From: Candidatus Saccharimonadota bacterium
Lineage (GTDB): Bacteria; Patescibacteriota; Saccharimonadia; Saccharimonadales; Saccharimonadaceae
Direction of reading: 5' to 3'
DNA length: 46,845 nt
Assembly: GCA_030523715.1 (NCBI GenBank)
Contig: JAUNHY010000002.1
Location: 52,332-99,176, forward strand
Each line of letters starts with the position of its first letter. The first letter of the stretch is position 1. The notes beneath the pieces were generated by a model. The model was given only the letters and a program-made list of their open reading frames with translations. It made no database searches and had not been told where the DNA came from. Below, one piece after another: positions 15,368-32,161 of the stretch. The translations under genes and the position numbers were made by a program.

Positions 15368-15769
15368 ATGAAACATACTTTCAAAAAAGCAGGCCAGATC
15401 CTAACGGGCGCAGCAGCAACCGTCACCATTTTGGCTGGTCGCGCAATGGCGACAATTAATAATTACGAAAACCCTGCTATGGCCGGCGCCGAAGCCGCTC
15501 GTGGAAACGGTATGCCGGAGAACCTCATCGGTGTCGATGGTGTCTTTACGAAGCTTACCAACACTGTCCTTTATGCCGTTGGTATCATTTCCGTTGTTAT
15601 GTTAATTATTGGTGGTATTCGTTATGTTATCTCCGCTGGCGACAGCAAGAAGGTCACCGATGCCAAAAATACTATTATGTACGCTATCATCGGTTTAATT
15701 ATCGCGATCCTTTCTTACGCAATCGTTAACTTTGTTATCACCGCAGTTGGCGGTCAACCAACCGTTTAA
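15368..15769 (+). CDS. VirB2-like T4SS pilin protein (copy 1)
   Basis: 133 residues. N-terminal signal-like segment (basic, then a hydrophobic stretch ending at AMA around residue 28), a short hydrophilic part, then two hydrophobic helices (about 67-88 and 105-127) linked by a short polar loop SAGDSKKVTDAKNTIMYA. This helix-loop-helix with GD(P/S)(G/K)K(V/I) followed by K-x-TIMYA is shared with the minus-strand proteins at 17.1-19.9 kb and is the T4SS_pilin/TrbC-VirB2 pattern. It should insert in the inner membrane and polymerise, or form part of a reduced secretion channel. The gene is separate from the six-gene array, with its own promoter. Confidence 0.85.
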   Translation: MKHTFKKAGQILTGAAATVTILAGRAMATINNYENPAMAGAEAARGNGMPENLIGVDGVFTKLTNTVLYAVGIISVVMLIIGGIRYVISAGDSKKVTDAKNTIMYAIIGLIIAILSYAIVNFVITAVGGQPTV

Positions 15770-15772
15770 TAC

Positions 15773-16435
15773 TTATCCACTTTTTGCCAATACGGCAATA
15801 CTTATCTTTTGACACCCATATGCTCGCAGTTTATTACAGGCTGCGAGCATACTACTTCCGGTAGTCCAAACGTCATCCAAAAGCAAATAGTTCGCTTCTG
15901 TATCGATATTGTTTTTAACTATATAGGCCGACTCGGCCTGTTTTTTACGCATCTTCTCGTCTGCGCCCACTTGTACAGCTTTATTGCCGCGTCGTAATAC
16001 AGAACTAATCCTCGAAGAGCAACGTCGCTCAATTTTCCGAGCAAGCAGCCCAATATGATCAAAACCGCGCTCTCTTATATGTCTTTCAATGGTAGGCAGA
16101 GGAACGATTTTATATACATCATCATCCAGAACTTCGACCATTAAATCGGCCAGAACATCCGCACAGGCTCGCACAGATTGATATTTATAAACACTAATTA
16201 AAGTCTTCAATGCACCCTCGCGCAACCCAACACGAAATTGCTTATTAAAGGGGAGAATACAATCCTCGCAATGCTCGTTTTTTAATCAATTACCACAGCT
16301 TATACAACGCGGCTCGTGCAGGGAAATAATGTATTTTTTACAACAATTGCACAGTATTCCACCAACTTTTGCACAAGAAATACAGAAATGCGGACAAAAA
16401 ATTTCCGGAATCTGCATAATTATTGTATTTTTCAC
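15773..16435 (-). pseudogene. comF: comF-like gene interrupted by an in-frame TGA
   Basis: One frame of 221 codons runs from a GTG at 16433-16435 (GGAGG 7 bases upstream) to the TAA at 15773, broken only by TGA at codon 50 (plus strand 16286-16288). Before the break are cysteine pairs (FCPHFCISC, CNCC, CISCGN); after it CEDC continues the zinc-finger pattern, then YKYQSVR and the PRPP motif LLLDDVWTTGSS. This is the ComF layout (zinc finger plus phosphoribosyltransferase fold), linked to DNA uptake. The downstream part could be made alone from a TTG at 16225 (150 residues), but that would lack the zinc finger. Readthrough, reinitiation, a real nonsense mutation or a sequence error are all possible. 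The stop codon is 3 bases past the end of the convergent pilin gene. Confidence 0.8.
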
Positions 16436-16454
16436 AACATTTCCTCCATTTTTC

Positions 16455-16483
16455 TTGATTTTAGAGAATAACCTCCATATAAT
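16455..16483 (+). promoter_or_regulatory. Promoter of the Hsp20 gene
   Basis: TTGATT (16455-16460), 17 bases, TATAAT (16478-16483). Transcription would start near 16490 and GGAGG lies at about 16507-16511. No CIRCE repeat is visible here. Confidence 0.8.
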
Positions 16484-16522
16484 AAAGCTTAAGAGTGTAA
16501 TTTAGTGGAGGAAAATAAATTT

Positions 16523-17032
16523 ATGGCTCGCAAACAAGACGAAATGAGCTTAGACGATGAGCTCACTGCCGCCTTTTTAGAGGGCGACAATTCTGGTATA
16601 GTTGCAGAAGAGGAACCGGTGGAAACTCCTGACAACACTCCAGAAGCAGCCGCAGAAGAAGATTACGTCGATGATGACAACGGTTGGGATGAAGATGCAG
16701 ATAATCTCCCGGGTCAGTTAGCTGTCGACGTTTACGAAACTGCCGACAAACTTATCATTAAAGCTCGTACTGCTGGTATTGAGCGCAAAGATCTCGATGT
16801 TTCTATTTCCGACAACATCCTTACCATCTCTGGCGTTCTCAACGGCGGGGAAGACGACAAAGCCACTCAATGGCATATTCAGGAATGCTACTGGGGTGAG
16901 TTCAGCCGCACTATTGCTTTGCCAGTACAGGTCAAAGAAGATGGCGTAGAAGCCGTCCTCAAAGATGGTGTCCTTACTATCTCCTTCGAGAAGGAAAAGA
17001 CCGAAGCGCCAAAGCGCATCATGATCAACTAA
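16523..17032 (+). CDS. Hsp20 / alpha-crystallin small heat-shock protein
   Basis: 169 residues. The first 75 residues are acidic and low in complexity; from about 80 the alpha-crystallin domain follows: LAVDVYETADKLIIKARTAG, DLDVSISDNILTISG, the WGEFSRTIALP strand, and the GVL-T-I motif (DGVLTISFEK) near the end. ATP-independent holdase that binds unfolding proteins as oligomers. The start is the ATG at 16523, 11 bases after GGAGG; a GTG at 16505 would overlap that site. The acidic N-terminal region is longer than in most sHSPs. Own promoter and terminator. Confidence 0.93.
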   Translation: MARKQDEMSLDDELTAAFLEGDNSGIVAEEEPVETPDNTPEAAAEEDYVDDDNGWDEDADNLPGQLAVDVYETADKLIIKARTAGIERKDLDVSISDNILTISGVLNGGEDDKATQWHIQECYWGEFSRTIALPVQVKEDGVEAVLKDGVLTISFEKEKTEAPKRIMIN

Positions 17033-17044
17033 TTATAGCTGAGT

Positions 17045-17075
17045 AAAAATCCACGGTTCAGCCGTGGATTTTTGT
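17045..17075 (+). terminator. Terminator of the Hsp20 gene
   Basis: AAATCCACGG / CCGTGGATTT arms (17047-17056 / 17062-17071) with a TTCAG loop and a T run. Confidence 0.93.
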
Positions 17076-17082
17076 TACCATC

Positions 17083-17109
17083 AAAAAAGAGCCCGAAGGC
17101 TCTTTTTTA
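17083..17109 (-). terminator. Terminator of the pilin gene ending at 17110
   Basis: AAAAAAGAGCC-CGAA-GGCTCTTTTTT, perfect stem, immediately past the stop on the minus strand. Confidence 0.92.
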
Positions 17110-17421
17110 TTAGGCTACAAGCATATTAATTACGAAGTTTGTAATCGCGAAAGCCAAGATAACAATTACGAGGCCAATTACGCCATACATAATCGTATCC
17201 TTACCTTTCTTAACCTTGCCAGGATCACCCTGGGAAGTAGCGTAGTTAACACCACCAAGGATAATCATAACAACGGCAACAATACCAATTACACCATAAA
17301 CAGCGCTCAAGATAACACCAATCATCTTAGTTAAATCGGTTTCAGCGCCAACACCACTGTTAACTTCAGTCAAACCGCTCAAAGCGTTGCTTGCAGCGTT
17401 TCCGAATAATTCTTTAATCAT
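17110..17421 (-). CDS. VirB2-like T4SS pilin protein (copy 2)
   Basis: 103 residues, without an obvious cleavable signal peptide: a 30-residue polar N-terminus, then two helices (about 34-58 and 78-100) around the loop TSQGDPGKVKKGKDTIMYG. The loop and helices match copies 3-5 closely, and an 89-base stretch is nearly identical at DNA level to copy 3. AAGGAG is 12 bases from the ATG, rather far. Terminators on both sides make it a separate transcription unit. Likely inner-membrane pilin or channel component of the adjacent secretion locus. Confidence 0.85.
   Translation of the reverse strand: MIKELFGNAASNALSGLTEVNSGVGAETDLTKMIGVILSAVYGVIGIVAVVMIILGGVNYATSQGDPGKVKKGKDTIMYGVIGLVIVILAFAITNFVINMLVA
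17183..17271. repeat. Near-identical DNA block shared by two pilin genes (copy A)
   Basis: This 89-base block matches 17599-17687 with a single difference that I can see (G/A near 17218). Sequence on either side diverges, including at synonymous positions. It encodes the conserved QGDPGK loop and part of both helices, pointing to recent gene conversion or duplication. Confidence 0.85.
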
Positions 17422-17481
17422 TTTTTATATTATCTCCTTATCTATAATAAACATAACATATTTGGCTTTATTATGCTAATA

Positions 17482-17508
17482 AAAAACACCCCCTTGCGGG
17501 GGTGTTCC
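17482..17508 (-). terminator. Terminator of the pilin gene ending at 17523
   Basis: AACACCCCC-TTGC-GGGGGTGTT with an A run on the plus strand (T run on the minus strand). Confidence 0.92.
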
Positions 17509-17522
17509 TAAAATCTATTAGA

Positions 17523-18032
17523 TTAGCTCGTACCGAGCATACCAATAATGAAGTTGATGATCGCAAAGGCGAGAATCGCAATTACGAGACCGATAATGCC
17601 ATACATAATCGTATCCTTACCTTTCTTAACCTTACCAGGATCACCCTGGGAAGTAGCGTAGTTAACACCACCAAGGATAATCATAACTACAGCAACCATA
17701 CCTACGACGAAGATAACACCATTGATGATAGTGCGGATCATCGTGTTGAGGTCATTACCATTACAGCTATCTGGATCGGATGCAAGAGAACCAGCTTGAG
17801 CACAGTCAGCAGAGCTCTTACCATAAATGGTTACATTCTTTGCAGATTTACCAGTACCTTCCTTAACGGTTACACACTTAACGGTATAATCGCCAGTCTT
17901 GGACGTACTAAGGTTTGGATAGGTCTTACCGCTACCTACGCAGTCCTTGATGGCTGCGAAAGTACCCGCTGTAATTACCAAAGCGGCAAATACAGACGCG
18001 ACTGCACCTTTAATAATTTTATTTGCTTTCAT
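17523..18032 (-). CDS. VirB2-like T4SS pilin protein with extended ectodomain (copy 3)
   Basis: 169 residues. The start is the ATG at 18030-18032 with AAGGAG 5 bases upstream; the frame extends to 18053 but that would read through the ribosome site. A signal-like helix (about 10-26) is followed by an 80-residue polar region with four cysteines (possible disulfides if exported), then the paired helices around TSQGDPGKVKKGKDTIMYG. The polar region makes it the largest single-domain pilin of the set and could be surface-exposed or specific for a partner. Carries the DNA block shared with copy 2. Confidence 0.85.
   Translation of the reverse strand: MKANKIIKGAVASVFAALVITAGTFAAIKDCVGSGKTYPNLSTSKTGDYTVKCVTVKEGTGKSAKNVTIYGKSSADCAQAGSLASDPDSCNGNDLNTMIRTIINGVIFVVGMVAVVMIILGGVNYATSQGDPGKVKKGKDTIMYGIIGLVIAILAFAIINFIIGMLGTS
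17599..17687. repeat. Near-identical DNA block shared by two pilin genes (copy B)
   Basis: Partner of 17183-17271, same orientation, one visible difference over 89 bases. Confidence 0.85.
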
Positions 18033-18105
18033 TTGTTCTCCTTTTATTAACATTCGAAAACCTTAACTTTATTTTAACATAACTATTTTGAAAAAATACA
18101 AATAA

Positions 18106-18396
18106 TTACAGTGCCTTAATCACAAAGTTTACAATTGCAAAAGCGAGCAGGGCAACGACGATGCCAATTACACCATATAATATAGTGTTCTTTCCTTTCT
18201 GAATCTTACCCGGATCGCCCTGAGATGTAATATAAGATACGCCACCTAGAACAATCATCACCACGCCAACTACGCCAATAATGCCAAAAACCACATTTAA
18301 AGCAGTGGTAACCGTACTACTTGCATCAGTTTGTGCGCCAGTACCCGCACCGGCCTGACTAATTTGACTTTCGATTGATGCTATTAGTGTTTTCAT
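18106..18396 (-). CDS. VirB2-like T4SS pilin protein (copy 4)
   Basis: 96 residues, the shortest of the set and without a cleavable signal peptide. A 28-residue polar N-terminus precedes two helices (about 31-54, 72-95) around TSQGDPGKIQKGKNTILYG. AGGAGG lies directly before the ATG. Ten bases separate it from the upstream gene ending at 18407, so copies 4-6 are probably one transcript. Function as for the other pilin-like proteins. Confidence 0.85.
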   Translation of the reverse strand: MKTLIASIESQISQAGAGTGAQTDASSTVTTALNVVFGIIGVVGVVMIVLGGVSYITSQGDPGKIQKGKNTILYGVIGIVVALLAFAIVNFVIKAL

Positions 18397-18406
18397 TCTC
18401 CTCCTA

Positions 18407-18778
18407 TTAACTCAATGCACTTAAGATTAGGTTCGTAATCGCAAAAGCAGCTAGCGTAACTACTAAGCCAATTATGGCATACATAATAGTATTCTTGGCG
18501 GACTGAATCTTACCAGGGTCGCCCTGGGAAGTCATATATTTTACACCACCAACTACAATCATCACGACTGCCAAAATACCAATCAAACCGTAAATTACGG
18601 TTAGCACACTACCAACCTTAGACATCATATCGTCTTCTGTGCCTTTGCCACAAATAATATCGCGGTTCGGCAAGTCTGCTGGACAATCGACTGTACTACT
18701 TGATGCAAATGCTGGCATGCTAATAAAACTACAAGCTGCCATCATTAATCCAATAAATGCTATTTTAATCTTATTCAT
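18407..18778 (-). CDS. VirB2-like T4SS pilin protein (copy 5)
   Basis: 123 residues with a clear signal peptide: basic start, hydrophobic core and a likely cut after AFA at about residue 25. The mature part has two or three cysteines (CPADL, IICGK), then two helices around TSQGDPGKIQSAKNTIMYA. GGAG is upstream of the ATG and overlaps the end of the preceding coding sequence (1-base gap from the gene ending at 18780), which implies translational coupling. Confidence 0.87.
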   Translation of the reverse strand: MNKIKIAFIGLMMAACSFISMPAFASSSTVDCPADLPNRDIICGKGTEDDMMSKVGSVLTVIYGLIGILAVVMIVVGGVKYMTSQGDPGKIQSAKNTIMYAIIGLVVTLAAFAITNLILSALS

Positions 18779-18779
18779 T

Positions 18780-19436
18780 TTATAATGCTCCTGCTACTGT
18801 ATTTACGATTGCTACCGCCATCAGTGAGATAGCTAAACCAATTGCGGCATACATAATCGTCTGTTTTGCTTTCTGAACAGCGCCAGGATTACCGGCACTC
18901 GTAGTATATTGAATACCACCAATCACAATCACAATTACTGCGATAATCGCCGCCCACGTAAAGGCATGATTCATTGCCGTCGTAAAGATGTTACCATTCG
19001 CCGCACCCTCAGCCACAATATCGGAAACCATGCCACTAATCGTAGAGGAAAGCATACAAATTGCTAAACCAATCAGCGAATTCATAATTGTCTTCTTGCC
19101 ACGTGCAACCTTACCAGGATCACCATTTGCCAACATATACTGAAAGCCGCCCCAAATTACGAAACAAATCGAAAGATAACCTACAATACCCAACACCATA
19201 CTCACAAGGTTTAACACAACAAGCCAAGCATTTTTACGAATATTATCTTCGCCCTTAAATGCGTCACTCGGAACCTCGCACGGATCGCCCGTCGCGATAC
19301 CATCATACCAAGCCCTTAAGCCAAGTACGTGTCCACCCGTGTTGCACCCCGCGGCATAAGTATTTGCCGGAATGACGGCTGCCGACACTGCAATCGATGC
19401 TATGAAGGCCGCTAGTAGTAATTGTAGTTTTTTCAT
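18780..19436 (-). CDS. Double-domain pilin-like protein (copy 6)
   Basis: 218 residues with a signal peptide (likely cut after TYA, about 28), a polar stretch, then two complete pilin units in one chain. Unit one has helices around ANGDPGKVARGKKTIMNS (about 100-117); unit two has helices around SAGNPGAVQKAKQTIMYA (about 175-192). That gives four membrane helices where its neighbours have two, and both loops keep the N/D-P-G-x-V...K-x-TIM pattern. AAGGAT lies 6 bases before the ATG. It could be a fixed dimer, cap or base of a pilus or channel. Head of the run of closely spaced genes 18780-18106. Confidence 0.88.
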   Translation of the reverse strand: MKKLQLLLAAFIASIAVSAAVIPANTYAAGCNTGGHVLGLRAWYDGIATGDPCEVPSDAFKGEDNIRKNAWLVVLNLVSMVLGIVGYLSICFVIWGGFQYMLANGDPGKVARGKKTIMNSLIGLAICMLSSTISGMVSDIVAEGAANGNIFTTAMNHAFTWAAIIAVIVIVIGGIQYTTSAGNPGAVQKAKQTIMYAAIGLAISLMAVAIVNTVAGAL

Positions 19437-19461
19437 TAATATATCCTTATATTATTATTTA

Positions 19462-19887
19462 TCAAAAGAATCCTGCTGTTTCTCCGCCCGGCAAGAATAA
19501 CTCGACTAATAATCCTGCCAAACCAAATATTGCTATACCTATAACTATATCAATCAAGCGACGCCTTGCTTGGGCTACCTGTGCCTCATTATCACGCGCC
19601 GACAAGATAATAAAACCACACCAAATAATACCAATCGTACCAACTACGCCTACGCCAGCAACCAAAATCCGTACCACCATGTGTATAATTTCAAAAATAC
19701 CGTCACCATTATCTTTACTACACCACGAATTCGGTAATAGAGAAGTACACTCACCCTCTTCCGCCTCGGCAAGTTGCGTAGTAGCAGAAGAAGAAGAAGC
19801 GTAGCTTATTGGAGCAAAACCAACATTTAAAACCAAGGCCAAACTAGCGGCTAGAATAACAAATATATTTTTTATCTTGGTTTTCAT
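19462..19887 (-). CDS. Divergent pilin-like membrane protein (copy 7)
   Basis: 141 residues with a signal peptide (likely cut after SYA, about 31), a short polar region with two cysteines, then two helices around SARDNEAQVAQARRRLIDI, a loop where the GDPGK pattern has been lost but spacing and charge are kept. The protein ends FLPGGETAGFF. I chose the ATG at 19887: TATTAT lies 8 bases upstream and no ribosome site exists, so this looks leaderless; the frame extends to 19920 across the promoter. First gene of the minus-strand array, divergent from the VirB6-like gene. Confidence 0.75.
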   Translation of the reverse strand: MKTKIKNIFVILAASLALVLNVGFAPISYASSSSATTQLAEAEEGECTSLLPNSWCSKDNGDGIFEIIHMVVRILVAGVGVVGTIGIIWCGFIILSARDNEAQVAQARRRLIDIVIGIAIFGLAGLLVELFLPGGETAGFF

Positions 19888-20026: not shown

Positions 20027-22771
20027 ATGGGCAAGAGTGTGCGAAACTTTACCATATCCCTTATAGCGGCCGTAATCAGCCTATTTACCCTTAACGGCCC
20101 AGTTTTTGCTACGGCCCAAGAAACTACCCCTGTTACTTCAATCTCGGCATCCGTCTCTACTCAGACTGTCTTAACTACCTTTGCTACCCCTACGACTCAA
20201 CCAGAAGAAGAGAAGGATGATAATGACACTTCTACCGAAGATAGTAGTACTTGTTATGATCAGGTTGGCGGTATTGGCTGGCTCATTTGTCCTGGTACCA
20301 GTTTCCTAGCTAACGTTATCGATGGCGCCTATGATGTCCTCGAAAATCTCATCAAAGTAAATCCTGTTTCTCTCGAGGACGATGCTCCAATCCATGTTGT
20401 TTGGCGTTACCTCCGCAATATCACCAATGTTATCTTTATTATCTTCTTCCTTGTCATTATCTATTCTCAGCTTACTGGCTTTGGCATCAATAATTACGGT
20501 ATTAAACGCACACTTCCACGTATTATTATTGCCGCTATTCTCGTTAACTTAAGCTTTGTTATCTGTATCCTCGCCGTAGATGTTAGTAACATCGTCGGCA
20601 TGTCACTCCGTGGCGTCTTTGAGAAGGTTGAAGCCGACGCCATCGCAAATAGTACTATCAGCCAAGCCGCCGCCGACACGTCTGTTGCCGGCATTGTCGC
20701 TACTATCTTAGGCGTTGGCACTATCGGTACAGTTGGTGCTCTTGCTGTTTCTGGTGGTTGGGCAGGCTTACTCTGGCTCTTAATCCCAGTCATCTTGTCT
20801 GGCGCTATTGCTATTATTTCTGCGGTTGTTACTATGGCCGCCCGCCAAGCCCTTATCCTCCTTCTTATTATGATTTCACCACTCGCATTTGTGGCTTATC
20901 TCTTACCAAACACAGAGAAGTGGTTCCAAAAGTGGTACCAGCTCTTTATGCGCATGATTATCTTCTACCCAATGTTTAGTTTCCTCTACGGCGCCTCTCA
21001 GCTCGCTGGTCTCGTCATGATTACCTCCGCTACCAACTGGCTCGGTGTCGTTCTTGGTATCGCTGTTCAGGTCTTACCGCTCTTTATGTCAATTCCACTC
21101 ATGCGCATGTCTGGCACTATTCTTGGTCGCGTCGACGGATTCATCCGCCGCACGGGTGCTCCACTCCAGGGTATGACTCACCGCTACGCCGACGAACGCC
21201 GCATGCTTGCTAAACAACGCCAGCTCGCCAGCAACAGCTATCTCCCATCTACTCGCCTAGCTCAATATCTTGAACAGCGCAAACTCAACCGCCGTCTCGA
21301 TACCGAGGAAGCTCTTGCGGCTGGCCACAAACAACGCATGGCAAACTACAACCGTAGCATGTATACCGGTAGGGGACAGCTCAGCCGTCGCGGTCTAAAT
21401 CGCTACTACAATATGCAACGCAACCTCGAGGCCGACAATGTTATCACTCAGACTAATATCGACTTTGATGAAGGTTTTGCCAGTGATGGCACCGATGCTC
21501 GCGTTCGCACTCGCGACCTCCATCGCATCGAAACTATTAATACTAATCTTATTCGCAACGTCGACGACGCAATGATTAATCGCGTCCGTCAGCGTACGGT
21601 CGATCTCGATAATACTCGTAGCCGTGCCGAACGTATCCGTGAAGGTGCCCGCGATGAGCATTCTCAAATTCATCGCCAAATTACTACCGCCTTCAATATT
21701 CCAAATAGTTCCAACGATCCAGCTCAGCAACGTGCTATCCAAAAATCCATCAACGCCACACTTTCTGATGCTATTACCGATAGCCATAAAGTTGATGCTA
21801 TAGCCAAGAGTAACTATATGGAACTCTACGATGATATGCCGGCTGGCCCAGGTATTATGCATCAGCTCGAAGACGCTATTCGCACCGGCGATTACAACTC
21901 CGCTTCTGCTGCAACCTTAATCATGGCTAAGCGCGGTGACCACGGTGATATTATTCGCACCATGGTTGACCATTCCGCCGAATTCGCCGACGATTTCGCA
22001 ATGCAGAAAGCTATGGCCGATACTGGCCTCAGTCTCAAGCATGACAACATTTATATGTGGGCTTGGTCTAAGGCGAATATGATTCGCCGCGGTATGAGCG
22101 CTACCAATGATGGCGTCACGCCATACATCGATATGCGCAGCTTCTTGTCTGGTCAAGATCTTCCAACTGATAGAGATCACGATGCGCTTCGCAAGGCAAA
22201 TCTCACCCAAATCTTTACCGACCTTACCAGCTGGGCACCGCTCGCTTCACAGGACCGCACCGTTTACAAGGAAATGCTCAAGCTCATCCAAGATGGTACT
22301 ATTCCGCTCTCGCACGATAGAGAAGGCAACACTACCTTTCCATTACTATTCCCAGAAAAATACATTCGCTCCGCCGCCGTGTCTGGCCAGATGGATGGTG
22401 AACAGCTTGGCACTTTGAACGCCCTCTTAACCGGTGGCTTCAAACGTGGCGCCGATCGTCAGAGTGACTTCTTTATGTCGCATCAAGACATTATCCACAA
22501 CCAGATTATGAGCTATGTCAACAACATGGTTGCTAACCAGCTTGTCACCTCCAAGAGCTCTACTATTATGGACATGAACGCTGCCTTGCTCGCTATTCAC
22601 CCAGACGAATACGTTGAACGCACTGTTGATGGACAGACCATGCGCGTCAGCCGCGAACTCTTCGAAGCCTTCGATAAAGAGCGCGTTGCTCTTAACAAGC
22701 CAAGTGCTATCAACCAGCGCAACTCTATGAATAAGTCTATCCGCGAAATGCTCGATATTAGTCTCGATTAA
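20027..22771 (+). CDS. VirB6/TrbL-like T4SS polytopic membrane protein
   Basis: 914 residues. Signal peptide ending near residue 29 (VFA), an acidic Thr/Ser-rich ectodomain to about 75, then six or seven hydrophobic helices between roughly 130 and 370, including a Gly/Ala-rich pair and the MISPLAFVAYLLP segment followed by KWFQKWYQLF, a pattern seen in TrbL/VirB6-type proteins. Residues from about 375 onward form a 540-residue polar, Arg/Asp/His-rich tail, probably cytosolic and helical. VirB6 proteins form the inner-membrane part of the DNA or protein channel. The long tail is not a standard VirB6 feature and may be a lineage-specific docking platform. No ribosome site; leaderless start under a strong promoter. 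Confidence 0.82.
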   Translation: MGKSVRNFTISLIAAVISLFTLNGPVFATAQETTPVTSISASVSTQTVLTTFATPTTQPEEEKDDNDTSTEDSSTCYDQVGGIGWLICPGTSFLANVIDGAYDVLENLIKVNPVSLEDDAPIHVVWRYLRNITNVIFIIFFLVIIYSQLTGFGINNYGIKRTLPRIIIAAILVNLSFVICILAVDVSNIVGMSLRGVFEKVEADAIANSTISQAAADTSVAGIVATILGVGTIGTVGALAVSGGWAGLLWLLIPVILSGAIAIISAVVTMAARQALILLLIMISPLAFVAYLLPNTEKWFQKWYQLFMRMIIFYPMFSFLYGASQLAGLVMITSATNWLGVVLGIAVQVLPLFMSIPLMRMSGTILGRVDGFIRRTGAPLQGMTHRYADERRMLAKQRQLASNSYLPSTRLAQYLEQRKLNRRLDTEEALAAGHKQRMANYNRSMYTGRGQLSRRGLNRYYNMQRNLEADNVITQTNIDFDEGFASDGTDARVRTRDLHRIETINTNLIRNVDDAMINRVRQRTVDLDNTRSRAERIREGARDEHSQIHRQITTAFNIPNSSNDPAQQRAIQKSINATLSDAITDSHKVDAIAKSNYMELYDDMPAGPGIMHQLEDAIRTGDYNSASAATLIMAKRGDHGDIIRTMVDHSAEFADDFAMQKAMADTGLSLKHDNIYMWAWSKANMIRRGMSATNDGVTPYIDMRSFLSGQDLPTDRDHDALRKANLTQIFTDLTSWAPLASQDRTVYKEMLKLIQDGTIPLSHDREGNTTFPLLFPEKYIRSAAVSGQMDGEQLGTLNALLTGGFKRGADRQSDFFMSHQDIIHNQIMSYVNNMVANQLVTSKSSTIMDMNAALLAIHPDEYVERTVDGQTMRVSRELFEAFDKERVALNKPSAINQRNSMNKSIREMLDISLD

Positions 22772-22833
22772 TTTCGCAAAAAATAACCTTATATTGAGCC
22801 CAAAATATATTGCGTTTATGCTATTATATAAGT

Positions 22834-24105
22834 ATGGCTCAGTATAAGGTCCCTCAAGATGTTGAGGCCGACGATAAACTCCTCGGACCTTTTAGTTTTC
22901 GGCAGTTTATATACCTTTTGATTGCTGCCGCTCTGATTGCCGTTGCGGTCCTTCTTTTTCGAGTCTTTCCACTTTTAGTTATTCTTCCGTTGCCATTCGT
23001 CTTATTTCTATTAGCACTTGCACTCCCGCTCAAGAAAGATCAGCCAATGGAGACTTATCTTTCCGCCGTTATTTCTTATTACATGAAGCCACATAACCGC
23101 ATTTGGGAACCAGGTGAACCAGAATCAACTATCGTAATTACAGCACCAAAGAAAACCGACGAAATTCACCTTAAGGATCTTAACCAAGACGAAGCAATGC
23201 ATCGCCTTTCCTTCCTTGCTGATATTGTCGATACCGAAGGCTACGCTATTAAAGGTGGTAGTACTAATGGCATTAGAGAAGACGTTATTGCTGAAGCAAA
23301 CGCCACCAAAGACATCTTTGAAACTCAATATGCTGCCTTTAGCCAACAGAATTTCCAACAAACTGTCGATACTCACCATGCCGAACTCGTAAATCAAATG
23401 CGTGACGCAATCGCAAAGAATAGCGCCCAAGTATCGCAAAACACTACTATTAGCCATACTATTTCAACTGGCCCGACTCCACCAAAAGTGGATTACAATG
23501 ATGTTATTGCTGCCGCCGAGCCAGCTGCGCCAGTTACACCAGTTACGCCACTACCACAATATCCGCAACCTACTCCTGTCGCGCAAACTGCTCCAAATCT
23601 TTCACCACCGAATTTCGTCACTAATGCTATGCAAGCAGCACCAGTTGCCGTCGGTGTAGCAACGGCTACGCCAACTACCGGCCCAACGCTCGAATCAATC
23701 CAGGCCGAACTAAATAACCTCCCACCACTACCTGGCACCACTCCAGATCCGTCCACAGGAGCCAGCCTCACAACCGAACAAAACACTAACCCGCTCGCCG
23801 AAGAATCAGTTTCTGCAAACGATAATATTATCAAGCCTGATCTACCTCTTCCAGACGACGTTGTCGAGCAAATCGCCGAAGAAGAAAAACCCTCTACCGA
23901 ATATATTCCAGCCGACGTCGCCGCCCGCCTTGGCAAAGACGACGAAGAAGATACTGGTCGCGTCGACCAAACTTCGCAAACCACTCCGAGCCAAGATATA
24001 ATTGATCTCGCAAATAATTCCGATTTCTCGATTGAAACTATTGCCCAACAGGCAAAACGTATCAATGATAAGCAAGATAATGAAGTTTATGTATCATTAC
24101 ATTAA
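22834..24105 (+). CDS. PrgI-like T4SS membrane protein with long disordered tail
   Basis: 423 residues. The start AQYKVPQDVEADDKLLGPFSF (split for length: AQYKVPQDVEAD, then DKLLGPFSF) and the following two helices (about 28-46 and 50-70) match the PrgI family, small membrane proteins encoded next to VirB4 in Gram-positive conjugation loci. Residues 75-180 are polar and partly helical; 190-400 are Pro/Thr/Ala-rich and acidic, likely disordered. TATTAT ends 6 bases before the ATG at 22834 and there is no Shine-Dalgarno; the frame starting at 22810 reads through it. Nine bases later the TraC-like gene begins. Probably a VirB3-type channel partner of VirB4. Confidence 0.8.
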   Translation: MAQYKVPQDVEADDKLLGPFSFRQFIYLLIAAALIAVAVLLFRVFPLLVILPLPFVLFLLALALPLKKDQPMETYLSAVISYYMKPHNRIWEPGEPESTIVITAPKKTDEIHLKDLNQDEAMHRLSFLADIVDTEGYAIKGGSTNGIREDVIAEANATKDIFETQYAAFSQQNFQQTVDTHHAELVNQMRDAIAKNSAQVSQNTTISHTISTGPTPPKVDYNDVIAAAEPAAPVTPVTPLPQYPQPTPVAQTAPNLSPPNFVTNAMQAAPVAVGVATATPTTGPTLESIQAELNNLPPLPGTTPDPSTGASLTTEQNTNPLAEESVSANDNIIKPDLPLPDDVVEQIAEEEKPSTEYIPADVAARLGKDDEEDTGRVDQTSQTTPSQDIIDLANNSDFSIETIAQQAKRINDKQDNEVYVSLH

Positions 24106-24114
24106 GGAGTAAAC

Positions 24115-25002
24115 GTGCAACCAAATCAACAAGGATTCCCGATGCAGCAAAACCCACAAATAATGGGTGGCGCGCAGCCGATGACGGGACAACCACAATT
24201 CACTGGAACCCCTATGGGGCAACAAACCATGCAGCCTGGCGCCGTTATTACGAGTCAAGCCGCACCTGGACAGCAACCAGCCGTCCAACCACAAGTTAAA
24301 GAAAACTCAAATTCCACACAGGCCACGCTGCTTATTTCTGAGCTGCGCGACTCAATGGTAATTATGAAAGACGGCTCTTTCCGTGCCGTCGTTGCATGTA
24401 AATCTATTAACTTCGACCTCATGTCCGAAACTGAACGCGAGGCCGTCGAATACTCCTATCAAAACTTCTTAAACTCCTTAAACTTCCGCGTTCAAATCTT
24501 AATTCGCTCCCAACGTGTGGATATCGGCCCATACATCGAGCGCCTCTCCGAACTCCGTCGCAATAATGATAATATGCTTCTCGGTATCCTTATGGATGAC
24601 TACATTAACTTCATCGATATCTTGAGTCAGGAAGCAAACATTATGGATAAATCCTTCTTTATTGCTATTCCATATTACACAACTTCCGAAGCAGAGAAAG
24701 CCGTCGAGCAGACCAAGAACCTCTTCGCAACTTTCAGCAAGAATAAAGCTCCAGCTATTACCCGTATTAATCGCGATACTTACGATAAAGCTGTTACAGA
24801 AATCAATAACCGCGTCGAAGCCGTTATTTCCGGTCTCTTCTCAATCGGTATTCATTCCGTTCGCTTAAACACCAAGGAGCTCGGTCAGCTTTACTACAAC
24901 TTCAATAACCCAGATACCGCTGTCCGCGAACCACTTGGTGACTTCAATAAGCTCGCACATCTTTATGTCAGAAAAGGCGACAAGCCGGAGGGAACTAACT
25001 AA
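24115..25002 (+). CDS. TraC-like protein (N-terminal half of a split VirB4)
   Basis: 295 residues starting at GTG, with AAGGAG 6 bases upstream. The first 60 residues are Gln/Pro/Gly-rich. From about 65 onward (TQATLLISELRDSMVIMKDGSFRAV, shown here as TQATLLISELRD then SMVIMKDGSFRAV) it matches the N-terminal domain of TraC/VirB4 proteins that precedes the ATPase domain; no Walker motifs are present. Its last base overlaps the ATG of the VirB4 ATPase gene (TAATG), so the two subunits are made together. Likely membrane-proximal partner of the ATPase. Confidence 0.8.
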   Translation: MQPNQQGFPMQQNPQIMGGAQPMTGQPQFTGTPMGQQTMQPGAVITSQAAPGQQPAVQPQVKENSNSTQATLLISELRDSMVIMKDGSFRAVVACKSINFDLMSETEREAVEYSYQNFLNSLNFRVQILIRSQRVDIGPYIERLSELRRNNDNMLLGILMDDYINFIDILSQEANIMDKSFFIAIPYYTTSEAEKAVEQTKNLFATFSKNKAPAITRINRDTYDKAVTEINNRVEAVISGLFSIGIHSVRLNTKELGQLYYNFNNPDTAVREPLGDFNKLAHLYVRKGDKPEGTN

Positions 25003-26819
25003 TGGCAAAGAAACAGCAACAACTCAGCGCCGCAGATATTGCCGCGCAAGCTCAACTTCAAGAAGAAGTCGAGATTCAGAAAGCGTTCGAAACCGGTATT
25101 ACAACCTTGCGCGATCTTATTTCGCCATCCAGTATCGAAATTCACTCCGACTATTTCCGTCTTGGTACTAAATACGGCCGCACTATCTATGTTTATGGCT
25201 ATCCACGCACGCTTTATACCGGCTGGCTCAGCTCTATTATTAATATTGACGAAGTTATCGATATTTCCATGTATATTTACCCGGTCGATACTGGCGTCAT
25301 TATGAAGAACCTCTCCAAGAAGGTAACTCAGCTCGAAGCGAGTATGAATATCAATAGAGAGAAAGGTAAAGTCCGTGACCCAGAGCTCGAAGCTGCCATC
25401 TCTGATGCTGAGGAACTCCGCGATCAGCTCCAGGTTGGTGCCGAGAAATTCTTCCGCTATGGCCTTTATGTCACTATTTACGCCGACTCCCTCGATGAAC
25501 TTCAGTTTGTACAACACAAAATTGAAACTATCTTTGGTCAACAAATGGTCTTCAGTAAAGTCGCTAGCTCTCAGCAAGAGCAGGGCATGAATACCACTAT
25601 GCCACAATGTACTGACCAACTTCAGATTCGCCGCAACATGAACACTGGCGCTATTTCCACCAGCTTCCCATTCACCTCGGCTGACCTTACTCAGGAGAAG
25701 GGTATTCTCTATGGTATTAACATGCACAACAACGGTCTTGTTATCTTCGACCGCTTCTCACTAGAAAACGCCAACATGGTTGTCTTCGCGAAGTCTGGTG
25801 CAGGTAAATCATTTACTGTCAAGCTTGAGGCTCTTCGTTCCATGATGGTGGGTACCGAAGTTCTTATTATCGACCCAGAAAACGAGTATCAGAAGCTTTG
25901 CGACGCTGTTGGTGGAGCTTATATCCGCCTCAGTCTTAACTCCGATGTTCGTATTAACCCATTCGATTTGCCAAAGGTCGTTGACGCCGAAGATGCCAAC
26001 GATGCGCTACGTTCAAACCTCGTTACGCTCCACGGTCTCTTCCGCTTAATGCTCGGTAGTGCCACTGGCGGTGGTGCTATCCTTACTCCAAATGAGGAAG
26101 CTGATCTCGATCAGGCACTCATTGATACTTATGCTCGTGCTGGTATCACTAACGATCCACTTACACATAATTCCACTCCACCAACTATTATTAACTTGTT
26201 CGATACCTTGCTTCACATGGGTGGTACTGGTCCAAGCCTTGCTCAGCGTCTCCGCAAATACACTACTGGTACCTTCGCTGGTATTTTCTCCCAGCAATCG
26301 AACATCGATATTAATAACCAGATGGTCGTCTTCAACATTCGCGACCTCGAGGATGAGCTCCGCCCAGTAGCTATGTATATCGTCCTATCGCATATTTGGA
26401 ACATCACTCGCGCCGATCAGCGCAAGCGCCTCCTCCTCGTTGATGAGGCCTGGCAGCTCATGAAGTACGAAGATTCCGCAAACTTCCTCTTTAGCCTCGC
26501 TAAGCGTGCTCGTAAGTATTATCTTGGTCTCACCACTATTACACAGGACGTTGAGGACTTCATGTCATCCAAGATGGGCCGCGCCATTGTAGCAAACTCA
26601 TCCATGCAGCTACTTCTCAAGCAGTCAAGCTCCGCCGTCGATGTTCTGTCTGATGTCTTTAAGCTTACCGATGAAGAGCGCAAGCGTCTCAGTAACTTCC
26701 CAGTCGGGCAAGGTCTCTTCTTTGCCGGTCAAAACCACGTCCATATTCAAATTATTGCATCAGAAACCGAGGAAAGTCTCATTACGACTAACCCAGCTGC
26801 AAAAGAAGGTGCTCGCTAG
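25002..26819 (+). CDS. virB4: VirB4-family T4SS ATPase
   Basis: 605 residues. Walker A AKSGAGKSFT at 263-272, Walker B RLLLVDEAW at 476-484 (Asp481, Glu482), and conserved IIDPENEY (289-296) and TITQDVEDF (about 512-520), typical of the VirB4/TraC/HerA superfamily. The first 240 residues hold the remaining part of the N-terminal domain with a coiled region around 105-145. It powers secretion or pilus assembly at the cytoplasmic face. The start codon overlaps the previous stop, so translation is coupled; TAG ends the gene 11 bases before a separate strong promoter. Confidence 0.95.
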   Translation: MAKKQQQLSAADIAAQAQLQEEVEIQKAFETGITTLRDLISPSSIEIHSDYFRLGTKYGRTIYVYGYPRTLYTGWLSSIINIDEVIDISMYIYPVDTGVIMKNLSKKVTQLEASMNINREKGKVRDPELEAAISDAEELRDQLQVGAEKFFRYGLYVTIYADSLDELQFVQHKIETIFGQQMVFSKVASSQQEQGMNTTMPQCTDQLQIRRNMNTGAISTSFPFTSADLTQEKGILYGINMHNNGLVIFDRFSLENANMVVFAKSGAGKSFTVKLEALRSMMVGTEVLIIDPENEYQKLCDAVGGAYIRLSLNSDVRINPFDLPKVVDAEDANDALRSNLVTLHGLFRLMLGSATGGGAILTPNEEADLDQALIDTYARAGITNDPLTHNSTPPTIINLFDTLLHMGGTGPSLAQRLRKYTTGTFAGIFSQQSNIDINNQMVVFNIRDLEDELRPVAMYIVLSHIWNITRADQRKRLLLVDEAWQLMKYEDSANFLFSLAKRARKYYLGLTTITQDVEDFMSSKMGRAIVANSSMQLLLKQSSSAVDVLSDVFKLTDEERKRLSNFPVGQGLFFAGQNHVHIQIIASETEESLITTNPAAKEGAR

Positions 26820-26948: not shown

Positions 26949-29708
26949 ATGGTCTCCACACCAAACAGCGGCCGCTACCGCGGTGAGCATGATCCATATA
27001 ATAATATGGAGAGTGCTGATATTCGCCCAGGATACATCGCTCGTCAAGAGCTTTCCGAGGCAGAGCAGGGTGCTAGCGATAAATCTAACGTTAGCTCCCA
27101 GGATTCGATTAGGACTAATTCTCGTGGTGGCCGTACTCTTGTGCGCGAAAATGCAACTCAGAATGCAAAATCTTCCGAACAGAATCAAAAATCTAATAAC
27201 TTCATCAATTCCGTTAAAGGGAAGAATGGTAAAAATGGCGGCAAACGCGGTTTTCTAAAGAAAACCGGCCCAATCGCTATTATTACAAGCCTTCTTCTTG
27301 GCGGTGGCGCTTTCTTTTACGGTGCTCAGTCTATGCTCGGCCCGCATCTATCATCGCTCTACACCAACGCCACTGATGTGCAGTTTAGTTCTTATAATTT
27401 CCGCAACGCTCGCATTATGTCTTATATGCTTGATGGTGGTGGTCAAATCAAAATCAGCAACTTCACTACCAAATACACTACTTTTACGCCATACATGCAG
27501 AGTCGTCTCAAGAGTAAAGGTATCGAAGTTGGCCATCTTAATTCTAGTGGCGAATTTGTTTCTGGCCAAGCCATCTTCGGCAATTCTACTGTTCTGAAAT
27601 ATGATAACGAAATTATTGATGCTAGCCACTTCCAAGACGCTTTTGCATCTAACGCAAATTTCCGCGAATCCTACTATGAAGCTAAGCGTGGTCGCATCGC
27701 TGGATTCTTCGATGACGTCTCGATGAAATATTATGACCAAAAAGGCGCCACGCGTGACATTTTTGACGATTATAAATCTACTGGCGACACCGATGTTGAC
27801 ACGGTTGAATTTAAACAAACCGTCTCCGACTACGTCGTTGGCGCCGACGGTTCCGTAAGTACTATTCGACATGGCGTGGACGAAGAAACCCAAGAAGAAT
27901 ATCTCGATAAATCCGAAGAAGTTAGTACTAAAAATGTCGATGGCGACACACCAGAAGTTAAGGCGCGCTCAATGGTTAATAGCATCGCCGCTAAAGTTTC
28001 CTCCGTCGGTGTACCAGTCTGTTCCGCACTTCGTATTGCCAACCTTGCCGCCGTTGCAGTTTCCGCCTATCAAATCTATCAATCCATCGCATACTTCTTA
28101 AGTCTCATGGAGCCAATCAGCAAAACTATGGCTGGCGAAGGCGATCAATCCGCCATTAATGAGACTCTCAACTTCATGACATCGCAATACACTACTAAAG
28201 TCGACTATGTTAATTCTGACGGCAAACAACAGACTAAAAACGTCACCGGTTCCATGCTCGAATCCACTGGCTCCAAACTCATCATGGGAAACACTAAATC
28301 CCCAGCCAGTGAAACCGCTCCATATTCATTTGACAACATTACTAAAGCCGCAACCACTATCGCTATCAGTACCGGCGCTACAAATGTTGTTTGTTCTGGT
28401 GTCATGGCCGCCAGCGCCATTGTTTCACTTGCTTCTGCTGGCGTTCCTGGCGGTAAACTCGCAACTTTCGCCGTTAGTATGATTGCAAAAACTATTGGCG
28501 GTGTCGTAATTACCGGCGTTGTCGCCGCTATTGTTAGCGCTATTATTCCTTATGTCGCCAAGATTTTCGCAAGCAACATTTTTGAAACTTATACTGGTAT
28601 TCCAGCCGGCGAATTATTCTCTCAGGGCGCCGCTACCGCCAATTTCTCGCTTGCAACTCAAGGTAGCGCTTATATGCCTTCCGATACTGAAGCAGTTAAA
28701 ACCCAAAATCGCAAAACTACTTTAGCGCTCGCTCAGGAAGCTGAAGTTGACCGCCTTAATCGTAGCCCATTCGATATCACTAGCACTAATACTTTTATGG
28801 GCTCACTATTGTCTAAGTTTTCCTACATGGCTTATTCCAGTAATATTGTAAGTGCCGTTAGTTCATTTAATAACATTACTGTAACCGCTATTCGCAAACT
28901 CACTCCAGCTTCTTCTGCCGCCGACGAAGAATTAATGTACACCTCCAATTATTCCGAATGTCGCGGCAATTCTAACGCCGCTTGTGATATGTATGGTCTC
29001 CCAATTGTCACTTCCGACTATTCCACTATTGATATTAAACCAGACGACCCAACTTACGAGTCTGTCGTTTCAAGAAATCTCGATAGTAACGGCAATATTA
29101 AAGAAGGCTCCGAGCTCGCAAAATTTATTAATTTCTGTAAAAACCGCAATTCACCTTGGTTCGTAAAAGATGCCAATATTCTTAACGCTCTCCAAACCGA
29201 CTTCGGTATCGTCGTAAATAATATCCCGTACGTAAATGATATTCTCGACATTGTTAATGCCGCCGAGGATGTCGCTAACGAACCATGGGCCACCGGCGAT
29301 ATTTGTATGAATACTTCCAGCAACTCACGCTGGGATAGTGAATTTAAATATTACCAACGCTACATCGAAGATATGCGCATTATTGGCGGTATGGAAGAGG
29401 AGACCGGCGGTAGCAACCCAGTCCTCGCCTACGAAGCAAAATATGAAGCTACTCACCCAATTGACACTTCCTTTGAAGGTACACTCGCACGCATTTCTGG
29501 TCTCACTAAAAATGATGTCGCTTTTCTAATGGAATACACTCGCTACTCTACCGAAATCGCCAATTATGATCCATCTGAACGTTATAGTTTCGTCGAAGTT
29601 TCCGAACCAGAAAAAATCCATTTCGAAGAAAATATTATCCCAGATTATTCCACGGTAATTACTAAATCCGAGCCGATCTTTATTGATAAACGGAACTACC
29701 TCGTATGA
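26949..29708 (+). CDS. Large membrane/surface protein of the T4SS locus
   Basis: 919 residues of no family I recognise. Residues 1-108 are polar, with Gly/Lys-rich GKNGKNGGKRG just before a helix at about 110-132, an orientation that keeps the N-terminus inside. A 220-residue exported polar domain follows, then two hydrophobic zones (about 355-390 and 470-545, the latter Gly/Ala/Val-rich and able to cross the membrane several times), then a 370-residue C-terminal domain with paired cysteines. The ATG at 26949 has an A/T-rich -10-like element about 10 bases upstream and no ribosome site. Its TGA stop overlaps the ATG of the next gene (ATGA), so the two proteins are coupled. Could be a channel subunit or surface adhesin acting with the hydrolase. 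Confidence 0.7.
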   Translation: MVSTPNSGRYRGEHDPYNNMESADIRPGYIARQELSEAEQGASDKSNVSSQDSIRTNSRGGRTLVRENATQNAKSSEQNQKSNNFINSVKGKNGKNGGKRGFLKKTGPIAIITSLLLGGGAFFYGAQSMLGPHLSSLYTNATDVQFSSYNFRNARIMSYMLDGGGQIKISNFTTKYTTFTPYMQSRLKSKGIEVGHLNSSGEFVSGQAIFGNSTVLKYDNEIIDASHFQDAFASNANFRESYYEAKRGRIAGFFDDVSMKYYDQKGATRDIFDDYKSTGDTDVDTVEFKQTVSDYVVGADGSVSTIRHGVDEETQEEYLDKSEEVSTKNVDGDTPEVKARSMVNSIAAKVSSVGVPVCSALRIANLAAVAVSAYQIYQSIAYFLSLMEPISKTMAGEGDQSAINETLNFMTSQYTTKVDYVNSDGKQQTKNVTGSMLESTGSKLIMGNTKSPASETAPYSFDNITKAATTIAISTGATNVVCSGVMAASAIVSLASAGVPGGKLATFAVSMIAKTIGGVVITGVVAAIVSAIIPYVAKIFASNIFETYTGIPAGELFSQGAATANFSLATQGSAYMPSDTEAVKTQNRKTTLALAQEAEVDRLNRSPFDITSTNTFMGSLLSKFSYMAYSSNIVSAVSSFNNITVTAIRKLTPASSAADEELMYTSNYSECRGNSNAACDMYGLPIVTSDYSTIDIKPDDPTYESVVSRNLDSNGNIKEGSELAKFINFCKNRNSPWFVKDANILNALQTDFGIVVNNIPYVNDILDIVNAAEDVANEPWATGDICMNTSSNSRWDSEFKYYQRYIEDMRIIGGMEEETGGSNPVLAYEAKYEATHPIDTSFEGTLARISGLTKNDVAFLMEYTRYSTEIANYDPSERYSFVEVSEPEKIHFEENIIPDYSTVITKSEPIFIDKRNYLV

Positions 29709-32161
29709 AAAACACTCTAAAAATCATCGCTTCCATGTTTTTCATTTGGCTCCTCGTTTGCCAACCAGCTTTTGCCGCTGATATGCCAGATTCAAGTATT
29801 CTTGATTATTACAACCGCAACGGTATTTATTATTACAATCCAAGCGGGAAGTGCGATAGTGACGAAAAAGTCTGTTCGTCTAATGATGGTTCCGATTTAA
29901 CTGTCATTGGCGACTCTATTCTCGCCGACGAATCCACAAAAGAGAAGATGAAAGCAAAATTTGATCATCTTCCAGAAAATAGTTACGATGCTGTAATTAG
30001 TCGCAACTGGTCGCAAGGTCTTGAAATTGCTCGTCAAACTACACTAAAAGGCACTGTGCTTTTCGAGCTCGGCTCTAATAATGTTGATGGACTTTCTCAA
30101 AAAGATATCGATGACCTCGTTAAAATAGTCGGCAACAACCGCAAAATCGTCTTAGTAACCAACTATGGTACTGCCGCACAATATCAAAAAGGTTACAACC
30201 AAAACAATGAATTATTTAAGAAAAATGCCGAGACAAACGAAAACATCATCGTTGCCGACTGGGCTGCCAAAGCTGCCGCCGAACATGCCAATATGGATTC
30301 TATGACTGTTCACCCCGCAGATAATGCTGCCCGCGATTTATATGTCGAAGTAATTTACGACGCGCTTAACACTTCTTGTGTTTCTGGCCGCGCCGTTATT
30401 AAAGGCACAACTGCCGCCGAAAAAGTCTGGTCCGGCCTTACTTCACTTGGTTTTACCGACGAACAAACTGCCGGCATCATGGGCAACATGCAACATGAAA
30501 GCAACTCCTTCAATCCAGTCCAGCATGAGGGCAGCCAATATCGTAAATATTGGCCAATGGATCTTGGTGGTAATTCCGAAAAAGCCTATGGCCTTGGTCT
30601 TATCCAATGGTCATTTGGCCGCCGTATTAATATGTATAACTACATTAAAGAACAGGCACCAGATCTGCTCAAATTCTTTAATTCTCCAGAACAATACAGT
30701 ATGAAAAACGGCAGTATTTATGGTTGCAATGGCGATTGTTTTATTGAGGCCGTTGGTGATCAAATCGCCGACCAAATCTACTCACTTGAGTTAACCTTCC
30801 TTTATGACGAACTAAATAGTCATAAAAGTTACTCTGGCATTTTTAATCAACAATCCGTTTATGATTCTGCAAAGTTTTTCCTTGAGCATGTCGAAATTCC
30901 ACAAAATCCTCAAATTGAACATCATATGAATCGCGCCACCGATGCGCAAAAATGGTACGATCAATTCCATGGCACTACTATTTCTGGCACTGGCAGTCGT
31001 CGTGGTAGTGGCAGTGGTTCAAGCAGTGGTCAACAATATCTCTCCGGCTCCAATAAAGATTACGAAGGAAACCAAATTCTCTCCGACGATCAAATGTCAA
31101 AAATAAACCAATATAAACCGCTCTATGAAAAAATCGTCGAAGGAACTCAGATTCCATGGCAAATTATGGCTACTATTCATTATCTCGAAAACGGTTTATC
31201 GCGTACCACGAGTCACGACCCACTCTGTAATAATGGGCAGTGTAGCAACGGTATCTTCCAAGTCATTACTAAACAATATGAAGCCGGCATAGAAGTTACC
31301 GACGAGCAGTTCGTCCAAATGGGTAAAGATGCTATCGCAGCCGAGTTAAAGATTTATTCTAGCGGTATAAACTTCAAAAATAGTGATGATGTAAAACGTT
31401 TCTTCTTTACATATAATGGCAAAGCTCAAAAATATATCCAGCAAGCTCGCGATTTAGGTTTTAGTGAAAAAGAAGCCAATAATGGTGAAGGTTCACCATA
31501 TGTTATGAACCGTGCCGATCAACAACGCGACCCAAATCACAATAAAACTACTTGGGGTCAAATTAAACAAGATCACGGCCCGCTCGAATACCCAGCCAAC
31601 CAACATTATGGTGCCTTTATTATTTATCAAGTCCTCGGCGGCACGGCGAGTGTAAATGGCTGTAGTACTGGTATTTCTGGCGCCGGAAATATGGATCTTA
31701 ACCAAACTGCGCTTGATCTTGCTTGGCCTGTTGGTGACCCACACGTCGGCACTATGACGCCAACCGATAATTATCGTCGCGCCTATACGCAAGTTGGTCT
31801 CGATGGTATTATGCCTGGCGGTTCCAGCTGCGATGTTTTCGTTTCTACGGTCGCACGCTATTCCGGAGTTGACCCAGATTTTGCTTGTTGTGGCGTCCAG
31901 GGTACAAATATTCCATATCTCGAAAAATCTCCTAAGTGGGAAGAAATAAAATATACTAATCCAAACGACACATCATTCTTACGCCCAGGCGATGTATTAA
32001 CAGTTCCTGGACACATTAAGATGTATGTGGAAAAAGATGGTAAAGCCATGACCGCTCAGGCTTCTTATGGTGATCACTCCGGCGAACTTAGTAACGGCGT
32101 CCGCTTAGTTGACTCAATTGGTCGTGGCAATTATCGTGTTTGGCGTTATAAAGGTAACTAA
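29705..32161 (+). CDS. Secreted cell-wall hydrolase with four putative enzymatic domains
   Basis: 818 residues. Signal peptide, cut near residue 24-25 (AFA). Domain 1 (about 62-225): SGNH esterase/acyltransferase-like, with GDS (Ser71), ELGSNN (121-126) and His203. Domain 2 (about 235-420): phage-tail-type lysozyme, with HESNSFNP (Glu265) and GLGLIQWS. A Ser/Gly linker (424-445). Domain 3 (about 465-645): lytic-transglycosylase-like, Glu495 in HYLENGLSR, with NGIFQV. Domain 4 (about 665-818): NlpC/P60-CHAP-like cysteine peptidase, GGSSCDVFV (Cys709) and GHIKMYV (His770). It could remove acetyl groups, cut glycan and cut peptide, ample for boring through a neighbour's peptidoglycan or for assembling the secretion machine. 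Overlaps the previous gene by four bases; its last bases overlap recF on the other strand. Confidence 0.82.
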   Translation: MKNTLKIIASMFFIWLLVCQPAFAADMPDSSILDYYNRNGIYYYNPSGKCDSDEKVCSSNDGSDLTVIGDSILADESTKEKMKAKFDHLPENSYDAVISRNWSQGLEIARQTTLKGTVLFELGSNNVDGLSQKDIDDLVKIVGNNRKIVLVTNYGTAAQYQKGYNQNNELFKKNAETNENIIVADWAAKAAAEHANMDSMTVHPADNAARDLYVEVIYDALNTSCVSGRAVIKGTTAAEKVWSGLTSLGFTDEQTAGIMGNMQHESNSFNPVQHEGSQYRKYWPMDLGGNSEKAYGLGLIQWSFGRRINMYNYIKEQAPDLLKFFNSPEQYSMKNGSIYGCNGDCFIEAVGDQIADQIYSLELTFLYDELNSHKSYSGIFNQQSVYDSAKFFLEHVEIPQNPQIEHHMNRATDAQKWYDQFHGTTISGTGSRRGSGSGSSSGQQYLSGSNKDYEGNQILSDDQMSKINQYKPLYEKIVEGTQIPWQIMATIHYLENGLSRTTSHDPLCNNGQCSNGIFQVITKQYEAGIEVTDEQFVQMGKDAIAAELKIYSSGINFKNSDDVKRFFFTYNGKAQKYIQQARDLGFSEKEANNGEGSPYVMNRADQQRDPNHNKTTWGQIKQDHGPLEYPANQHYGAFIIYQVLGGTASVNGCSTGISGAGNMDLNQTALDLAWPVGDPHVGTMTPTDNYRRAYTQVGLDGIMPGGSSCDVFVSTVARYSGVDPDFACCGVQGTNIPYLEKSPKWEEIKYTNPNDTSFLRPGDVLTVPGHIKMYVEKDGKAMTAQASYGDHSGELSNGVRLVDSIGRGNYRVWRYKGN

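Follow-up and report, generated by a model that had tools for sequence, protein, structure and literature searches.

The window analysed here is a stretch of 46,845 nucleotides from a 0.89-Mb Saccharibacteria (Saccharimonadia) genome, belonging to an organism that probably lives on other bacteria, and between positions 15368 and 19887 it carries an array of genes for small VirB2-like pilins. The preliminary description of this DNA had placed seven such genes here, one on the plus strand and six on the minus strand, and this was borne out, all seven open reading frames (ORFs) being present. They are listed below with their matches to the Pfam family PF18895 (T4SS_pilin).

P1, 15368..15769, plus strand: VirB2-like pilin with a signal peptide, in a clade of its own; PF18895 E=5.5e-11
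P2, 17110..17421, minus strand: VirB2-like pilin without a signal peptide; PF18895 E=3e-14, and above the cut-off of NF045849
P3, 17523..18053, minus strand: VirB2-like pilin with a four-Cys ectodomain; PF18895 E=7e-13
P4, 18106..18396, minus strand: VirB2-like pilin without a signal peptide; PF18895 E=5e-14
P5, 18407..18778, minus strand: VirB2-like pilin with a signal peptide; PF18895 E=8e-14
P6, 18780..19436, minus strand: two VirB2-like pilin domains, P6a and P6b; PF18895 in two stretches, E=2e-21
P7, 19462..19887, minus strand: divergent pilin with a signal peptide, adjoining the VirB6 gene; PF18895 E=1e-6

The P7 ORF spans 19462-19920 on the minus strand, and its start is likely to be the internal ATG at 19887, with which the signal peptide begins and which agrees with the end coordinate given in the preliminary description. 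All seven products pass the curated cut-off of PF18895 (29.1-76.2 bits against 26.6), which is the top Pfam match for each copy, and P6, a protein of 218 residues, holds two pilin domains, so that the array comprises eight domains in seven genes. Five of the seven also exceed the cut-off of NF045849, the Mbov_0395-family pilin-like protein of a Mycoplasma integrative and conjugative element (ICE). Matches to PF04956 (TrbC/VirB2) were obtained for P2, P5 and P7 at 24.1, 23.8 and 25.2 bits, below the curated cut-off of 27.9 bits, and none was obtained for P1, P3, P4 or P6; we therefore use the label ‘VirB2-like’ and not VirB2. The genes directly downstream are those of a type IV secretion system (T4SS):

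20027..22771, plus strand: VirB6-like polytopic membrane protein of 914 residues, assigned by position, topology and blastp to the corresponding gene of relatives
22810..24105, plus strand: PrgI (VirB3-like); PF12666 E=8e-12, above cut-off
24115..25002, plus strand: TrsD (VirB4 N-terminal-like); NF041427 E=3e-7, below cut-off
25002..26819, plus strand: VirB4 ATPase; PF19044 E=1.5e-29, above cut-off

The VirB6-like protein had no match in Pfam or NCBIfam; VirB4 together with the PrgI and TrsD homologues constitutes the gene set of a Patescibacterial, MPF-FATA-like T4SS, most loci of which lack a relaxase (PMC12102498). The pilin family, the sub-threshold PF04956 matches and this neighbourhood uphold the VirB2-like identity proposed at the outset. 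A holin-like or generic membrane family, which the preliminary description had named as the competing explanation, finds no support, PF18895 being the top match for each copy and T4SS genes lying alongside, and chance ORFs are ruled out by E-values, conservation and the ratio of non-synonymous to synonymous substitution rates (dN/dS).

The motif GDPGK...TIMYG had been ascribed to every copy; it stands for the others and fails for P7, in which the corresponding stretch is ARDNEAQVAQARRRLIDIVIG and which is 13-20% identical to the remaining pilins, these being 27-76% identical among themselves. The N-termini do differ as strongly as described: there is none in P2 and P4, a signal peptide in P1, P5 and P7, a signal peptide followed by a four-Cys ectodomain in P3, and a Cys-bearing ectodomain in P6. 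The pilin domains of P2 and P3, whose N-termini are unrelated, share 76% protein identity and 170/219 positions in DNA, which suggests that duplication or conversion took place fairly recently. The P3 four-Cys ectodomain recurs, with 49% identity over 82 residues, in a non-pilin protein with a single transmembrane (TM) helix encoded elsewhere in the genome (L136:3380-4084, minus strand; L-numbers denote the loci compared and G-numbers other Patescibacteria genomes). The loop between the hydrophobic helices, read from the sequence, carries Lys/Arg residues (GDPGKVKKGKDT), and sequence and AlphaFold models agree on the VirB2-type arrangement of two hydrophobic helices joined by a short, positively charged loop. 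In the model of P3 a long helical hairpin (helices 102-133 and 139-174) is joined to a small ectodomain of alpha/beta type, whereas P6 is modelled as two helical hairpins; both models have a predicted local distance difference test score (pLDDT) of about 80 and a predicted template modelling score (pTM) of about 0.5. A search of the P3 profile against the sequences of solved structures returned no pilin and one weak match, to a MacB transporter (E=0.29).

The number of pilins had seemed remarkable in the preliminary description, and for this phylum that impression was mistaken. Patescibacterial VirB2 arrays with 2-11 pilins have been reported in 441 instances and are abundant in Saccharimonadia (PMC12102498), and ‘Candidatus Southlakia epibionticum’ has a predicted pilin series in its T4SS cluster, reported to be essential for growth on the host (PMC10633639) and counted as six pilins (PMC12857230). 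PF18895 matches per genome had a median of eight in 45 same-genus genomes and of six in 117 genomes sampled across the phylum, 108 of which had at least two. Seven pilins in one array are thus nothing out of the ordinary in this phylum, and the multi-pilin array is an already known type, not a new one.

The order of the array was compared with 80 VirB4 loci from other genomes and its phylogeny with a tree of 395 pilin domains. Two further genes, both of them conserved neighbours, separate P1 from the other pilin genes:

15773..16225, minus strand: phosphoribosyltransferase; PF00156
16505..17032, plus strand: HSP20 small heat-shock protein; PF00011 E=2e-18

The synteny and gene-tree analysis, which had been suggested as a check, gave a conserved order and position-specific clades. 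Relatives repeat the series P1 (plus strand), phosphoribosyltransferase, HSP20, minus-strand pilins, VirB6, PrgI, TrsD and VirB4; the two interposed genes are wedged between P1 and the remaining array in nearly all of them, P1 is present in 48 of the 51 loci with a visible phosphoribosyltransferase, the HSP20 gene bounds the array in 54 relatives, and three to seven minus-strand pilin genes follow. P1 falls in a single clade with 50/50 plus-strand pilins (support 0.985), P6a in a clade of 63 members (0.928) from which P6b is grouped apart, and P7 in one of 27 members (0.968). In about 11 loci P6 is replaced by two adjacent single-domain genes, and because one sorts with P6a and the other with P6b, this suggests that the two domains act as partners. 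Where it could be calculated, dN/dS between matching array slots, a whole-gene measure that would miss local positive selection, was about 0.04-0.3, and the pilin copies therefore look maintained. P1 is the slowest-evolving pilin (about 88-93% identity among close relatives, the others ranging down to about 40-88%) and P7 the fastest. Most copies thus appear from position and phylogeny to be ancient pilin classes fixed in place, a feature that looks new, having been found in the text of none of the open-licence papers searched. The distinct roles suggested in the preliminary description gain support from these position-locked clades and from purifying selection on the measurable slots.

A quite unlikely explanation for the same array is that its paralogues form a pool of alternative pilins for antigenic or host-range variation. 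Variation of this kind has been proposed for Bartonella Trw, and PMC12102498 suggests it for Patescibacteria, as a way of suiting different hosts. A pool would accommodate the great differences among pilins within arrays, the genome-to-genome differences in mid-array copy number, the similarity of the P2 and P3 domains, with its hint that one was duplicated or converted fairly recently, and the fast evolution of the ectodomains and P7 (56% identity between the window and L051, against 98% for VirB4). Such a pool should mix, however, whereas the P1, P6a and P6b clades stay separate across the sampled loci, and no slot with a calculable dN/dS comes near 1, within the reach of a whole-gene test.

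Pilin domains of the P7 type, and more rarely of the P5 type, also occur outside the array, joined to hydrolases and other enzymes. The genome under study encodes at least six further such proteins: one P5-type copy with two Big_2 domains and an esterase-like domain, and five P7-type copies with papain-like, C39-like or NlpC/CHAP-like domains, recognized in part by Pfam and in part by eye. The five fall within the P7 clade (support 0.968-0.999), and P5 likewise groups with fused homologues (0.857-0.859). A profile search of the 45 same-genus genomes, tallied by hand and giving a lower bound, found at least 58 dispersed long P7-type copies in 20 of them, and the P7-type profile had matches in 243 of 294 genomes of the class, some in long frames of other genera. 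We read 48 long fused proteins (including those of L167 and L168, which are located in the array), in which the extra domain follows the hairpin in 28 and precedes it in 20. Pfam recognized VanY in six, Big_2 in five and C39_2 in four, along with lysozyme, GH114, NAGPA, endolysin-like, PHB esterase and tyrosine phosphatase domains in one or two each; many had no named Pfam domain. Fusions also occupy the array itself: in L052 and L054 the pilin of the P5 slot has Big_2 and SGNH-like sequence attached to it, and in L063 and L067 a P7 copy bears VanY, the fused domains of L054 and L063 having been identified by eye from their L052 and L067 counterparts. The enzymes probably act outside the cell, and the occurrence of exported enzymes at both ends of the pilin domain agrees with N and C termini that lie outside. 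In other Patescibacteria, pilin domains were also seen in open frames of 3312 (G389:C1:86515), 1588 (G329:C86:11220) and 1243 residues (G343:C1:505966), so that the phylum as a whole may have pilins fused to very large proteins. As far as the open-licence literature shows, enzyme-bearing P7/P5-type pilins are undescribed; no fused T4SS pilins were found in the text of the papers searched.

For the dispersed fusions alone, a serious possibility, to which we give somewhat less than even odds, is that the hairpin, after being copied out of the T4SS locus, serves only to anchor surface enzymes in the membrane and has no link to the machine. A two-helix hairpin can anchor proteins by itself, and many of the fused domains are ordinary surface hydrolases. 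Nevertheless, the loop and helix residues T24, G26, A37, N40, R50 and G57 (P7 numbering) are the same in every array and fused copy of a 15-row alignment, and the VanY-bearing P7 stands inside the array in L063 and on the L067 contig. Moreover, fused P7 domains are nearer to the P7 encoded in the array of the same genome than to those of other genomes, with a mean excess of 10 points (permutation p=5e-5; 38 domains in 16 genomes, genome mean positive in 16/16), figures that leave out the array-tandem fused copies of L167 and L168. Recent copying, gene conversion and co-evolution would each produce such tracking.

The fused genes frequently have a companion. A gene for a protein of 110-270 residues with one N-terminal TM helix accompanies 18 of the 28 C-terminal fusions, as against 6 of 75 other long genes at the same loci (Fisher p=1.6e-8), and 6 of the 20 N-terminal fusions (p=0.017). 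By phmmer, 21 of 24 partners are linked, a figure for which the common TM region may account in part. Genes for small single-TM proteins were seen to adjoin or overlap fused-pilin genes, and their acidic exported domains are of several types (L132:7759-8343, L132:11038-11628, L134:7080-7616 and others). Immunity or chaperone functions for the partners are guesses.

Our current working hypothesis, to which we assign a probability of about 0.6, is that the locus is the pilin array of a Patescibacterial chromosomal T4SS, with specialized, non-interchangeable pilins that co-assemble in a heteromeric pilus or channel. The pilins would span the membrane as hairpins whose two termini face outwards and whose Lys/Arg-rich loop faces inwards, VirB4 and TrsD would draw them out on the VirB6 platform, and they would co-assemble into one structure for attachment to, or exchange with, the host bacterium. 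What each part of the array does we infer from sequence: P1 or the P2-P4 group may provide the bulk subunits, P6a and P6b may be matched to each other as a pair, and P7 may have a special place at the tip or base. A mixed filament, as envisaged in the preliminary description, would fit the fusion and fission of P6a and P6b.

Alternatively, the hairpins might be mainly channel or inner-membrane parts of a monoderm T4SS without an external pilus, a view in keeping with the general lack of pili among Gram-positive T4SSs (PMC12857230), the assignment of TM7x filaments to type IV pili (PMC12206443), the lack of signal peptide and ectodomain in P2 and P4, and the fused double hairpin of P6. Membership of a pilin family and the large exported domains on several copies argue against it, and we consider it unlikely.

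Several observations weigh against a specialized heteromeric assembly. The P2-P4 group varies in number among relatives, which is also compatible with simple duplication. A P7-type gene adjoins VirB6 in about 20 of 66 relatives, namely the present genus and a few others, and P7 is therefore not an obligatory member; the idea that all slots, P7 included, are universal was dropped for this reason. Synonymous divergence (dS) was frequently saturated in the slot comparisons, and the resemblance of fused to array P7 domains may stem from duplication or conversion without physical interaction. Fold comparison yielded only helical-hairpin matches among solved structures, the one conjugation pilin among them, from Aeropyrum pernix (8dfu_0: Z 7.6, 72 residues, root-mean-square deviation 3.3) not standing above unrelated hairpins; as helical hairpins match many unrelated chains, it is uninformative as proof of a VirB2 fold.

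More tentatively, the dispersed P7/P5-type proteins with wall-degrading or other enzymes could share the same assembly slot, and the machine might thereby display or deliver them at the host interface; a mounting of enzyme-bearing pilins on the pilus or channel is plausible. A broader and tentative proposal by analogy, which we hold to be rather improbable at present, is that in Saccharibacteria one pilin domain of the T4SS is the module on which enzymes of a polymorphic set are mounted, giving ‘cargo pilins’. Fused P7/P5-type pilins would then enter the pilus or base, carrying cell-wall hydrolases, glycosidases, esterases or phosphatases to the host cell, while the adjoining single-TM partners would protect or chaperone the producer. 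The fixed classes recast ‘many pilins’ as separate, testable roles, and if enzyme-bearing pilins do use the T4SS, they offer a candidate cargo list for epibiotic bacteria that can be read from sequence.

The remaining features of the window that concern us are the following:

11508-13394, minus strand: membrane-anchored serpin with a long acidic N-terminal region; PF00079 E=4e-44
26949-29708, plus strand: membrane protein of 919 residues between virB4 and the lysozyme gene, without a Pfam match
29705..32161, plus strand: secreted phage-type lysozyme protein; PF18013 E=8e-22
34520-35947: dnaA, recognized from sequence

The serpin gene adjoins groEL and is unusual for so small a genome. The lysozyme protein is a probable wall-opening VirB1 analogue; in ‘Ca. 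S. epibionticum’, essential peptidase and lysozyme homologues lie just downstream of virB4 (PMC12102498).

Among known systems, the evolved VgrG and PAAR effectors of the type VI secretion system (T6SS) are structural subunits that bear a fused enzyme. They offer a possible model for the dispersed fused pilins, from which they differ in belonging to an unrelated machine, pilin-borne delivery being a proposal. The Mbov_0395 family (NF045849) differs in belonging to a conjugative element, the Mycoplasma ICE. Close counterparts are the Patescibacterial VirB2 arrays of PMC12102498, which share the phylum, the Pfam family, the VirB4/TrsD/PrgI/VirB6 neighbourhood, the multiple divergent tandem pilins and the closeness to dnaA; the copies are treated there as variable paralogues, whereas we find mostly fixed classes, as well as fused forms not found in the text of that report. 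‘Ca. Southlakia epibionticum’ ML1 (SEML1_0006-0019; PMC10633639) likewise has a pilin series inside its T4SS cluster, and its virB4 is followed by peptidase and lysozyme genes; its pilins, reported as essential, number six, against seven genes with eight domains here. The tandem VirB2 paralogues of Bartonella Trw and Anaplasma, as cited in PMC12102498, resemble the present array in their number per T4SS locus; they are read there as antigenic variation, whereas here the clades are locked to position.

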